IMG/VR virus record: IMGVR_UViG_3300046167_000415
Span: 1 to 30,004 of that record
Origin: a virus
Length of the DNA: 30,004 nt
Direction: 5' to 3' (one strand)
In this document: in pieces, positions 7,869 to 29,028 of the stretch
How the letters are laid out: each line of letters begins with the position of its first letter
Position numbering within the stretch: the stretch's first letter is position 1
Notes under the pieces: model-generated
Told to the model about the DNA's origin: nothing
The model's database searches: none
Seen by the model: only the letters and a program-made list of their open reading frames with translations
Program-made: the position numbers and the translations under genes

Positions 7869-8402
7869 TTAAAATGGTAGGTCGTCGTTTGTAGTTTCGA
7901 ATGCTTCGGCTGCTGTTGCTACATCAGGCTTATTTGTAGGTACCTCTGCTGCACCCAACGGCATTTCCTGTGATACATCAATGCCTTCAAATAAAGCTGC
8001 ATCTGGTGCGCTCTCATAAGATTCTAAAGCAAGAACTAAAGCTTCATTAATATAAACCGTCAGACCTTTCTTGCCGCCCATCTCATACGCTTTAATCGTA
8101 GCACGTACTCGAAGAGTTGAGCCGTTGCCTATAAGACCAGTGTACAAAGTTTTTGACTTGTCCCATACCTTGATAAGGTTTTTTGTTTTAAGTCGTACCG
8201 TTGGCTGCTCGTATTTCGCTTGTGTGACGTGCTCAAGAACACGCATTCCCTCAATCGTTTTAATACTTGCAGCGTCTAGTGTTAAGTCAACTTGGTACTT
8301 CTCACTCATCTGATCTGTTCCACTCGCTTCTGTAAGTCGAGCCCAGTTTGCTGTTCCAGTTAATACAACTGAAACGCCTTTTGCAAAATCTAAATTTGCC
8401 AT
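7869..8402 (-). CDS. ssb: Single-stranded DNA-binding protein
   Basis: A 177-residue protein with a beta-rich N-terminal body (FAKGVSVVLTGTANWARL; RVRATIKAYE; KGLTVYINEAL) and an acidic C-terminus ending TTNDDLPF, the tail typical of SSBs, with a terminal Phe that recruits partner enzymes. The body is compatible with the phage OB-fold SSB families (gp2.5-like/DUF2815-like) rather than with bacterial Ssb. I chose the ATG at 8402 (MANLDFAKG). An in-frame ATG at 8453 would place the start inside the RNA structure at 8421-8465 and add an atypical N-terminus. It sits between MazG and the DnaA-like gene. It is probably regulated through its structured leader. Confidence 0.82.
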   Translation of the reverse strand: MANLDFAKGVSVVLTGTANWARLTEASGTDQMSEKYQVDLTLDAASIKTIEGMRVLEHVTQAKYEQPTVRLKTKNLIKVWDKSKTLYTGLIGNGSTLRVRATIKAYEMGGKKGLTVYINEALVLALESYESAPDAALFEGIDVSQEMPLGAAEVPTNKPDVATAAEAFETTNDDLPF

Positions 8403-8420
8403 ATCTTTATTGTTATGTGC

Positions 8421-8465
8421 TGCCCCTTTAATAATTATAACGTTGTGGGGCATTTACAACGTTAT
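8421..8465 (-). promoter_or_regulatory. Predicted H-type RNA pseudoknot in the SSB leader
   Basis: On the transcribed strand a perfect 10-bp stem forms between 8465-8456 (ATAACGTTGT) and 8446-8437 (ACAACGTTAT). Its 9-base loop ends TGCCCC (8452-8447), which is complementary over 6 bases to GGGGCA at 8426-8421. The linker lengths suit an H-type pseudoknot: AAA crosses the 6-bp stem and AATTATTAAA crosses the 10-bp stem. An 18-base A/T-rich unstructured segment leads to the SSB ATG at 8402. T4 gene 32 has an autoregulatory pseudoknot in the same position relative to its SSB gene. The base pairing is seen; the function is inferred. Confidence 0.72.
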
Positions 8466-8467
8466 GC

Positions 8468-8767
8468 TTAGTCTTTTATGAATGTGCCGTTCTGCATCTT
8501 GCCTTTACGCTTAGCAATAACGCTGTAGGCTTCATTGATACACTCCTCAACATTAACGCCTGCGAAATAAGCTACGCTTGTTAAAACAACAATGCTATCG
8601 CCTATGGCGTCTATAATTTCTTCAGTGTCTTCATTAAGCACTGCTTTAGCAAGCTCACCAGCTTCTTCATAGAATTTGATGGTTTGCGTTTTAAGGTCAC
8701 CCTTTTCATAAATGCCTTTTTCACGAGCCCAAGTTCTGATAGGGCTAAACTCATTTGATAGTTTCAT
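8468..8767 (-). CDS. MazG-like nucleotide pyrophosphohydrolase
   Basis: This 99-residue all-alpha protein has the MazG/dCTPase-type metal site: FYEEAGELAKAVL (ExxE, residues 29-41) and IIDAIGDSIVVLTSVAYFAG (ExxD-like, with Glu and Asp ligands). Members hydrolyse NTPs or dNTPs to the monophosphate and pyrophosphate; human DCTPP1, which acts on dCTP and modified dCTP, is a relative. The gene overlaps the upstream thymidylate-synthase homologue by 4 bases (ATGA). Together they could turn dCTP into dCMP and then a modified dCMP, but substrate choice cannot be read from sequence and other house-cleaning roles are possible. Confidence 0.85.
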   Translation of the reverse strand: MKLSNEFSPIRTWAREKGIYEKGDLKTQTIKFYEEAGELAKAVLNEDTEEIIDAIGDSIVVLTSVAYFAGVNVEECINEAYSVIAKRKGKMQNGTFIKD

Positions 8768-26264: not shown

Positions 26265-27821
26265 TTAATCGAGTTTTAAAAGTTTGAGTTTATATTCAAA
26301 GATTTCAATATCAGACATTTCTTCAACCTCGGCTTTCACCTCAACTTCAGCACCCTCTGATTCAGGTGTATCTTTTCTTATCATTAGCTCACTCGTTGCA
26401 TCCGGATATGCAGGTTGCGATACCGGGGAAACATCAAGAAGCCTTGATACTTTTTCTATTATTCTATAAGTCTTGCCATCACGCTCTTCCCAGCGGTCAC
26501 GCTCAATCAAGAAAGCGAATGAACTTTGGTTCACATCACCTCTCTTCATCAATTCAACCAAATCATTTGCATATGAAGTATTCGGTAAGTCAACTTCGTA
26601 GTAAAGTCCTCGGTCATCTGTTGACATACGCAAGGTGCCTGAAGATACCCGACCTAAAAGCAAACTTTCATCGTGATTCCAATAGGCTCGCGTATCATTA
26701 TCCATAACATCATCAAAGGCACCTTTTGCAATTTGCTCATAAAAACCACCCATCCATTCACTATCGCTGTTGTAAACAGCTGCATAGCCTCGAACAGTTT
26801 GACCTTCATATTCTGCACTTTCCATACGGAACTCACGCTTCTCAATGATGGCTTTATGGTTTCTTACTTCCGCATCAAACTTATCTAAAGTTGAGAAACG
26901 GTGCGCAACATTAAGAGCTGGCTTGCGTTCGATGTAGGCTTCCTCTTCAGAAGAGTAGCGGTATATTCTGATGAGAGCTGCAGGGTCATCAGCAGTGCCA
27001 TTGACTTTAAAGCCACTATCTGCCTCGATTTGTCCATCGCGCTCTATTTTAATAATAACGCCGTAAGCATTTCCGCCGCTTGTGTTCCAACGTACAAAGT
27101 CACCAACATTTAAAGCGTCAGGCTCAGCACGATGGTTAACAGCAATGCCTCTCACTGCTTTTACTACATCAAGGTTGTTGTCGTAATGTCTTGAGATATT
27201 AAGCTCTTGTATCTTAGCAATCTTGCTTTCATCGCTTCCAGTAGCGTAAACATTTTCTTTCTTAATGCCATTTGCTATAGCGAAGCCTTGTAAGTATTCG
27301 TCTTTATCTCTTGCACTGATAATATATAAATCAGCGTCTTTAGCTTTTTCCTCTTCAAGATATGCTCTACCCTCTTCAGTATTAAGCGTGCCGTCAAAAT
27401 CAAATGATACCCGCTCTTCATCATAGCCAGCTTCTTCCATCTCACCCTTACCGAATGTGATGACAATTTCTTCATCAGTTTCAACAACTGACTTTATATG
27501 TCTCTTATCGTCTTTCATTTTTTCAACTGTTCTTTTAGCCCAGCTTAGCATTGCATCCCCGCCCCAGGCTGCATACATAATAGAGCCGCAAATGTCTTTG
27601 CCGTCACTATCAGTGAACTTACCTTGGTCATAAGTTTTTGATCGAGATAAAAAAGAATAAGTACGAACTACTGTATCCTTACTTATTGTTTCTCGACCAG
27701 CTAACTGGTTCGCTCTTGCCCAACCTACAGGCGTACCACACTTTGTGCCATTTTTTTCTTTATGGTCAAGTGCACGCTGCGCGGCCTTACTTGCTGCTTT
27801 TGGGTAATCGTTATACGGCAT
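26265..27821 (-). CDS. Multidomain prohead protease: N-terminal domain, HAD-like, Tudor-like and S78 protease
   Basis: A 518-residue fusion. Residues 1-105 form a Cys/Trp-containing domain (NGTKCGTPVGWARANQLAGR; MYAAWGGDAMLSWAKR). Residues 137-225 look like a HAD hydrolase with all motifs: DFDGT (Asp141, Asp143), IISA (Ser169), Lys203 and YDNN (Asp214). Residues 239-290 (VGDFVRWNTSGGNAYGVIIK) resemble a Tudor/SH3-type DUF2945 barrel. Residues 325-483 are a prohead protease: EKREFRM, GGFYEQIAKGAF, WNHD (His383), NQSSFAF (Ser433/434) and SPVSQPAYPDA. It should mature the capsid. The ATG at 27821 overlaps the portal gene by 11 bases. The roles of the first three domains are unknown. Confidence 0.88.
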   Translation of the reverse strand: MPYNDYPKAASKAAQRALDHKEKNGTKCGTPVGWARANQLAGRETISKDTVVRTYSFLSRSKTYDQGKFTDSDGKDICGSIMYAAWGGDAMLSWAKRTVEKMKDDKRHIKSVVETDEEIVITFGKGEMEEAGYDEERVSFDFDGTLNTEEGRAYLEEEKAKDADLYIISARDKDEYLQGFAIANGIKKENVYATGSDESKIAKIQELNISRHYDNNLDVVKAVRGIAVNHRAEPDALNVGDFVRWNTSGGNAYGVIIKIERDGQIEADSGFKVNGTADDPAALIRIYRYSSEEEAYIERKPALNVAHRFSTLDKFDAEVRNHKAIIEKREFRMESAEYEGQTVRGYAAVYNSDSEWMGGFYEQIAKGAFDDVMDNDTRAYWNHDESLLLGRVSSGTLRMSTDDRGLYYEVDLPNTSYANDLVELMKRGDVNQSSFAFLIERDRWEERDGKTYRIIEKVSRLLDVSPVSQPAYPDATSELMIRKDTPESEGAEVEVKAEVEEMSDIEIFEYKLKLLKLD

Positions 27822-29028
27822 CCTCAGTAGTGTTATCTGTTCCGGCCTCAATCATATTTAAAGGCTGCAAATAAACATCTCCTCCGTCAATTGGATCAAG
27901 GCTTTCATATTTGCGTATGTCATTAACACTCATCCATCCCCATTGTCTTGCTGTTGCATAAGAGCTGTAGCGGCTTGATATATCGCCTCTAAGGAGCCCG
28001 TCCATGTTCATGCGTATAAAGTAATCTTCTTGACCAGGGAAGAGCTTACGATTGAATTCTGCTTCCCAACGTTTCACCCAGGGTAGAATTGTGTTTCTTT
28101 GAAACTGAATTCCTTGTTCTTCAATGTTTGCTCTTGTGCTTGAGTTCTCTAATGAACCTAAGTAAGCTAAAGGAATGCGGAAGAACCTTGCAATGTCTTC
28201 AACACCAAATTTACGTGTTTCTAAGAATTGTGATTCAGAAGGTGAAATGCTCACTTTGGTGAGATTCATTCCTTCTTCCAAAATTGCGGTTTTATGTGAA
28301 TTGTCCAAACCGGAATAACGGCGTTGCCAGGATGCCATCAAACGCTTATAAGCTTCATCTGACAATTTCCCGGGATGTGTAAGCACTGCACTTACATTTG
28401 CACCGTTACCAAAGAATGAGCCACCAAACTGGTCAGCAGCCAAACCGAGACCTATGCTTTCTCTTGCTGATTCAATGACGCTCTTGCCTATAATACCATC
28501 AAAAGACAATCCTAAAATGTGAATCATCTCTGTATCATCAAAGGTTTCTTTGCCTTGATCGATAGTATAAAACTTTTCATCCTTGTAGACCTTAACCTCA
28601 ACGCGGTCAGGATGTACAGGTATCAATTTAACAGGTTGGCCCGCTTCGTTTCTGCGGATCGCAATAAATGCATTCCCGTGTAAACAAAGGTGCGCCTGAC
28701 AAACTTCTCTAAAGTTAAAGTCTGTCATCATCCCGTTCGGGTGATGTATTAACTTATTAATTGGGTGCGCTGATGCACTGCGGGTATTATCGCCTGCATC
28801 TTGCTTTACTTCCCACGGAAGCGATGCGATAGTCTCAGAGATAACACGAACGGCACCAAATACAGCAGACAAGCGCATAGCGCTATCTTCTGTTATTGCA
28901 ATACCGGTTTTTGATGCCGACCCATCAAACATCCAAGAAGCGGGATTCGCTAATGATGTTGAGGGGTTATTAGGCGAAGAGCGGAATGCTCCTAAGATTC
29001 GCCCAAATAAATTCTGATTCTCGGCCAT
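27811..29028 (-). CDS. Portal protein, HK97 family
   Basis: A 405-residue portal subunit: RLSAVFGAVRVISETIASLP, NKLIHHPNGMMTDFNFRE, HGNAFIAIRRNEAGQPVKLI, SRESIGLG-like helices, FRIPLAYLG and the late LPWVKRWEAEFNRKLFPG are family hallmarks. It forms the dodecameric ring through which DNA is packaged. It is the first gene of the late operon, with a probable promoter and an upstream terminator just before it. Confidence 0.94.
   Translation of the reverse strand: MAENQNLFGRILGAFRSSPNNPSTSLANPASWMFDGSASKTGIAITEDSAMRLSAVFGAVRVISETIASLPWEVKQDAGDNTRSASAHPINKLIHHPNGMMTDFNFREVCQAHLCLHGNAFIAIRRNEAGQPVKLIPVHPDRVEVKVYKDEKFYTIDQGKETFDDTEMIHILGLSFDGIIGKSVIESARESIGLGLAADQFGGSFFGNGANVSAVLTHPGKLSDEAYKRLMASWQRRYSGLDNSHKTAILEEGMNLTKVSISPSESQFLETRKFGVEDIARFFRIPLAYLGSLENSSTRANIEEQGIQFQRNTILPWVKRWEAEFNRKLFPGQEDYFIRMNMDGLLRGDISSRYSSYATARQWGWMSVNDIRKYESLDPIDGGDVYLQPLNMIEAGTDNTTEDAV

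Follow-up and report, generated by a model that had tools for sequence, protein, structure and literature searches.

A covarying leader pseudoknot ahead of a gp2.5-type ssb gene in uncultured phages, with a possible role in SSB autorepression

Phage T4 and its relative RB69 offer a well-described case of a single-stranded DNA-binding protein (SSB) that controls its own synthesis, as gp32 represses itself through a leader pseudoknot and the adjacent unstructured RNA (PMC535899; PMC3014915). The locus considered here raises the question of whether an ssb gene of another SSB family is preceded by a genuine RNA element of this kind and, if so, what acts on it. It lies on the minus strand of an IMG/VR viral sequence of 30,004 nucleotides, the whole of which is called the window. 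The features of the locus are as follows.

7869..8402, minus strand: ssb, for a predicted gp2.5-type single-stranded DNA-binding protein of 177 aa, ATG at 8402 (phrog_112, fold match)
8403..8420, minus strand: linker to the start codon, GCACATAACAATAAAGAT, A-rich, unstructured, without Shine-Dalgarno sequence
8421..8426, minus strand: stem 2, 3' strand, GGGGCA
8427..8436, minus strand: loop 3, AATTATTAAA, 10 nt, A/U-rich
8437..8446, minus strand: stem 1, 3' strand, ACAACGTTAT
8447..8452, minus strand: stem 2, 5' strand, TGCCCC, pairing 6/6 with 8421-8426
8453..8455, minus strand: loop 1, AAA, A-rich in every leader
8456..8465, minus strand: stem 1, 5' strand, ATAACGTTGT, 10/10 Watson-Crick pairs with 8437-8446, with compensatory changes in relatives
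8468..8767, minus strand: MazG-like pyrophosphatase, the gene upstream of ssb, its stop codon 2 nt before stem 1

Judged by family profiles and a structural model, the product of ssb is a T7 gp2.5-type SSB, with a gp2.5-like OB fold and an acidic, aromatic C-terminal tail. It matches phrog_112 'Gp2.5-like ssDNA binding protein' (E 2e-8) and ends in the acidic tail NDDLPF. Its AlphaFold2 model (pLDDT 80.6) has T7 gp2.5 (1je5) as top fold match (Foldseek E 3e-6; Z 13.2, rmsd 2.9, 119 residues), followed by phage DUF2815 proteins and the phage Enc34 SSB. The profile and fold matches, together with the tail, bear out the earlier note, which had described the gene as an SSB with an acidic tail. The Pfam SBB_T7 model gives 13 bits, under the family cut-off, and a profile search of solved structures with the SSB returned no real match.

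The neighbouring genes encode thymidylate synthase, a DUF6378 protein, MazG, a DnaA-HTH-like protein, a RecE-like exonuclease and a polymerase/primase, which fits a replication/nucleotide cluster. Structural genes of the window are siphovirus-like (portal, head maturation protease and major head protein), and no close isolate phage was found for it. Shine-Dalgarno sequences are rare among its genes, and no promoter of the sigma-70 or Bacteroidota type was detected on the same strand near the ssb leader. As a separate observation, the head maturation protease matches of the 528-aa ORF at 26265-27851 (minus strand) are confined to residues 325-525; the 325 residues at its start match other sequences, among them part of a Roseobacter phage record.

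Directly ahead of ssb, positions 8465-8421 of the minus strand form an H-type pseudoknot, arranged in the 5' to 3' direction as ATAACGTTGT-AAA-TGCCCC-ACAACGTTAT-AATTATTAAA-GGGGCA, with no base separating the 5' strand of stem 2 from the 3' strand of stem 1. The coordinates, lengths and pairings that had earlier been given for the stems and loops were all recovered from the sequence. In a scan scored by stacking energies, its score of -30.8 was the top for any H-type pseudoknot on both strands of the 30-kb window, and 5000 dinucleotide shuffles of its leader never equalled it. Upstream regions of 80 nt from 28 other genes of the window gave no score below -16, so the pseudoknot appears special to ssb. 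When only nested folds are allowed, the leader is unremarkable (z -2.1), because ordinary folding cannot make both stems together; as single-stem hairpins, stems 1 and 2 reach -9.4 and -9.5 kcal/mol, respectively.

Comparison was extended to relatives in viral contigs of uncultured phages, from which near-repeats were removed, leaving 13 distinct leaders with the pseudoknot (the window, L007, L008, L009, L012, L014, L015, L022, L020, L025, L026, L027 and L034). Within this clade, whose SSBs are 48-95% identical to that of the window, the element is present in 13 of 13 distinct leaders, and each leader outscores all 400 of its own shuffles. Among them are 12 distinct stem-1 and nine distinct stem-2 sequences, all of them paired; stem 1 is as variable as stem 2 across phages. 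The stem-2 variants include TGCCCC/GGGGCA, TGCCTC/GAGGCA, GCCGC/GCGGC, ACGCTCC/GGAGCGT, GCTGCA/TGCAGC and GTCGTCA/TGACGAC. In an unguided MAFFT alignment, changes on both sides occur at 10 of 16 pairs, the covariation score reaches 0.283, compared with 0.134 for shuffled alignments (reached in 0/500), and sliding the register lowers pairing from 82% to 26-49%. The counts of both-side changes are conservative, as MAFFT misplaces the rows of L026, L027 and L034 and that of L020. A structure-guided leader alignment was made by hand and leans towards the pseudoknot.

Outside the stems, the leaders share composition more than sequence. Loop 1 is A at 37 of 39 bases, loop 3 is 87% A/T and 5-18 nt long, and the linkers are 58% A, 5% G and mostly predicted open. 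From the 3' end of the pseudoknot to the ATG there are 14-24 nt in all 13 leaders. No unpaired conserved core is found in them beyond the A-rich loops, and the correlation between stem-1 length and loop-3 length is not significant. Owing to the covariation in both stems, the pseudoknot can be taken on comparative grounds as a real RNA element, one that compensatory changes have preserved. The structural claim of the earlier note, an H-type pseudoknot with an A-rich, unstructured stretch leading from it into the SSB start, thus gains strong support from the covariation check that it had proposed.

The same data bear on the reading that the pairing is due to chance, belongs to a terminator, or lies in coding sequence that begins at 8453. 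The window taken alone does offer an in-frame ATG at 8453, but covariation and the interrupted 8453 frame of relatives already refute this reading, which is almost certainly wrong. The earlier note had left room for a true start at 8453; it is excluded, as stops close the frame before the conserved ATG in L008 and L009 and L015 lacks an ATG at this place. The start is the conserved ATG at 8402. Immediately before 8453, the window carries an in-frame TAA at 8456-8454; therefore no upstream fusion into ssb is possible, and frameshift or readthrough into ssb is blocked. A terminator was rejected for the window, which has no T run after stem 1. L034 (also L038) does carry a T run there (CGAGTTTTTTT), so that stem 1 in that leader could double as a weak terminator. 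Two further candidates were set aside: an operator palindrome was considered and dropped, and a stem 2 that hides a Shine-Dalgarno sequence was rejected, as this stem ends 18 nt before the ATG and is not Shine-Dalgarno-like in L015, L020 and L026.

Conservation extends into the gene itself. Synonymous codon identity is 0.71 in ssb codons 2-9 against 0.44 in the remaining codons, indicating that constraint runs on through the initiation region. At 8376-8402 (minus strand) of the window, and at the same place in relatives, there is a possible hairpin GCAAA/TTTGC just after the start codon, which is retained in L020 and L025 despite a codon deletion and in L026 with a changed pair. This hairpin may contribute to the constraint in codons 2-9, although a protein motif could explain it instead.

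The element might also work as DNA, that is, as a fold of single-stranded DNA, a replication start or a repressor operator. Stem 1 by itself is an inverted repeat, and a DNA role has been considered for the STAXI pseudoknots near ssb genes (PMC2864571). Against this, the element keeps its distance from the ssb ATG and its orientation relative to it, and in L007, L009, L012 and L027 the sense strand of the mRNA has internal G-U pairs. The drawn stems hold eight G-U and no A-C pairs, a biased count given that G-U but not A-C was permitted in the drawing. A DNA element is accordingly judged very unlikely, and we infer that the pseudoknot exerts RNA-level control of ssb initiation.

The gene upstream of ssb is not constant. 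It encodes MazG in three leaders (the window clade) and is a small hydrophobic ORF in ten; this ORF, 39-54 aa long, lies before ssb in L009, L012, L014, L015, L020, L022, L025, L026, L027 and L034. Since the pseudoknot stays with ssb despite this swap, the element belongs to ssb. The intergenic space consists of approximately the pseudoknot and linker and little else, and the upstream stop codon falls at stem 1 or within a few bases of it in 11 of the 13 leaders. In the two exceptions, L009 and L012, this stop is at -88, some 23 nt before stem 1.

Such an arrangement is compatible with a pseudoknot that acts on ribosomes without SSB: it would lie at the upstream edge of the 30S footprint, keep the linker open or halt ribosomes coming from the upstream gene, and so set or couple basal ssb translation. 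A ribosome terminating at or next to stem 1 would open it, the spacing of the pseudoknot to the ATG is kept at 14-24 nt, and the window is poor in Shine-Dalgarno sequences. Moreover, initiation depends on mRNA structure in a bacterium that lacks Shine-Dalgarno sequences (PMC6847099). However, other genes of the phage have no such element, which makes it special to ssb, and both the identity of the upstream gene and, in L009 and L012, the position of its stop vary. A purely ribosomal role is therefore considered rather unlikely, though worth keeping in mind; independently of it, terminating ribosomes may also modulate ssb, given that 11 of the 13 leaders have the upstream stop at or close to stem 1.

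The pseudoknot is improbable as the receptor of some other ligand, whether as a small-molecule riboswitch or as the target of a phage or host protein other than SSB. Riboswitches can be short H-type pseudoknots, and the ligand could be another phage or host protein. However, Rfam yielded no match at any threshold, riboswitch models included (nothing credible at gathering score for the window, nor for the leader with E allowed up to 10), and among the loci seen the element occurs only before ssb. The lack of a sequence-specific core beyond the A-rich loops also favours recognition of shape and single strands by SSB over a metabolite riboswitch. Still less probable is an element for mRNA stability or processing, such as 5' end protection or an RNase block, rather than translation. 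A stable structure lying between two cotranscribed genes would suit such a role, but the sequence bears no sign of a cleavage site, and conservation of the linker and of codons 2-9 speaks for a role in initiation.

We lean towards the reading that the ssb leader is a cis-acting mRNA operator through which SSB represses its own translation by means of the pseudoknot and linker. SSB is the likeliest repressor of its own gene because it binds single strands, because the element varies freely and because T4 and RB69 provide a precedent. In the proposed mechanism, the pseudoknot would act in the mRNA and the linker would be the control point, where the 30S subunit would have to bind without a visible Shine-Dalgarno sequence. 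SSB in excess of the single-stranded phage DNA would bind the ssb mRNA, where the pseudoknot, read by shape and not by sequence, would serve it as a rigid anchor or a point of nucleation. Bound SSB would then cover the linker and the AUG and turn off its own translation. The SSB level would thereby be set separately from the neighbouring genes, since ssb follows another gene and no promoter of its own was found. We know of no autoregulation among gp2.5-type SSBs and of no cooperative binding by T7 gp2.5.

The layout resembles the gene 32 operator of T4, RB69 and T2, in which the leader of a phage ssb has an H-type pseudoknot and, after it, an A-rich stretch without structure that takes in the initiation region. 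Nevertheless, the SSB here is gp2.5-type by PHROGs and fold and not of the gp32 family, the clade consists of uncultured siphovirus-like phages, and repression is a prediction. The linker of 14-24 nt is A-rich and G-poor, whereas that of T4 exceeds 40 nt and carries UUAAA/UAAA repeats, and no Shine-Dalgarno sequence lies between pseudoknot and AUG, while the T4 gene 32 operator has one (PMC535899). With a linker this much shorter, extended cooperative coating cannot be assumed. The earlier description 'T4 gene 32-like' thus holds for the layout but fails for linker length, linker composition and the Shine-Dalgarno sequence, and the leader is not a member of the T4-type gene 32 operators despite its similar layout. 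Even among T4 relatives, the pseudoknot is missing in phages such as RB49 (PMC535899).

The window SSB has the fold of the T7 gp2.5/Enc34 SSB family (phrog_112), as well as its acidic C-terminal tail. No autoregulatory leader pseudoknot was found for this family in the open-access papers searched, and we know of none. STAXI likewise comprises pseudoknots near ssb genes, but as 2-3 repeats, often with UUCG loops, near several kinds of DNA-handling genes (PMC2864571). Unlike STAXI, the element of the window is single-copy, has no UUCG, is fixed to the ssb start and has no Rfam match. E. coli rpsO differs in that the ribosome is trapped on its pseudoknot. The translational operator of E. coli rpsO also contains a pseudoknot and controls its gene autogenously, although its protein (S15) differs from SSB (PMC3014915). 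A literature search found autogenous control of SSB by a leader pseudoknot for T4-type phages only. As far as we know, it has been shown in these phages only. A covarying pseudoknot that occupies this position in an unrelated SSB family would speak for convergence. There is about an even chance that the leader is a second, independently evolved case of such SSB control, in which a gp2.5-type SSB would read the shape of a pseudoknot that otherwise varies freely and adjoins a short initiation region lacking a Shine-Dalgarno sequence. The 12 stem-1 and nine stem-2 variants would then form a natural series for asking how a sequence-independent SSB selects its own mRNA without a visible Shine-Dalgarno sequence.

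Beyond the clade, the element was sought in isolate phages and bacterial genomes. A tblastn search of isolate phages with the window SSB gave nothing at 1e-5; with the SSBs of three relatives and a looser limit, the only matches were to Pelagibacter phages and a single Podoviridae record (~28-33% identity), and the leaders of these lack the pseudoknot. A blastn search of isolate phages with the leader returned chance matches only, exact DNA patterns of the pseudoknot matched only contigs already known as SSB relatives, and the bacterial genomes searched yielded none. Rfam 15 has no such family and no paper describing the element was found in open-access text, so this leader pseudoknot is apparently unreported.

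The pseudoknot is also missing in L028 and L039-L044, whose SSBs are 39-47% identical to that of the window. These contigs are probably of freshwater origin, and the pseudoknot clade is presumably marine. Its absence from these relatives and from the Pelagibacter phages counts against the autorepression reading. Before ssb, most of L028 and L039-L044 carry a terminator, a promoter of Bacteroidota-like type and a small hairpin, and the promoter in place of the pseudoknot suggests that the latter serves an ssb without a promoter of its own. In L039, L040, L042, L043 and L044, a strong terminator and a TTG-N-TAnnTTTG (Bacteroidota-type) promoter are located ~170 nt before ssb. The same five contigs share a conserved leader hairpin, GCGT-AAACAAACAA-ACGC, and a CGTTTGTTTGTTT-like run before the terminator that is complementary to the loop region of this hairpin.
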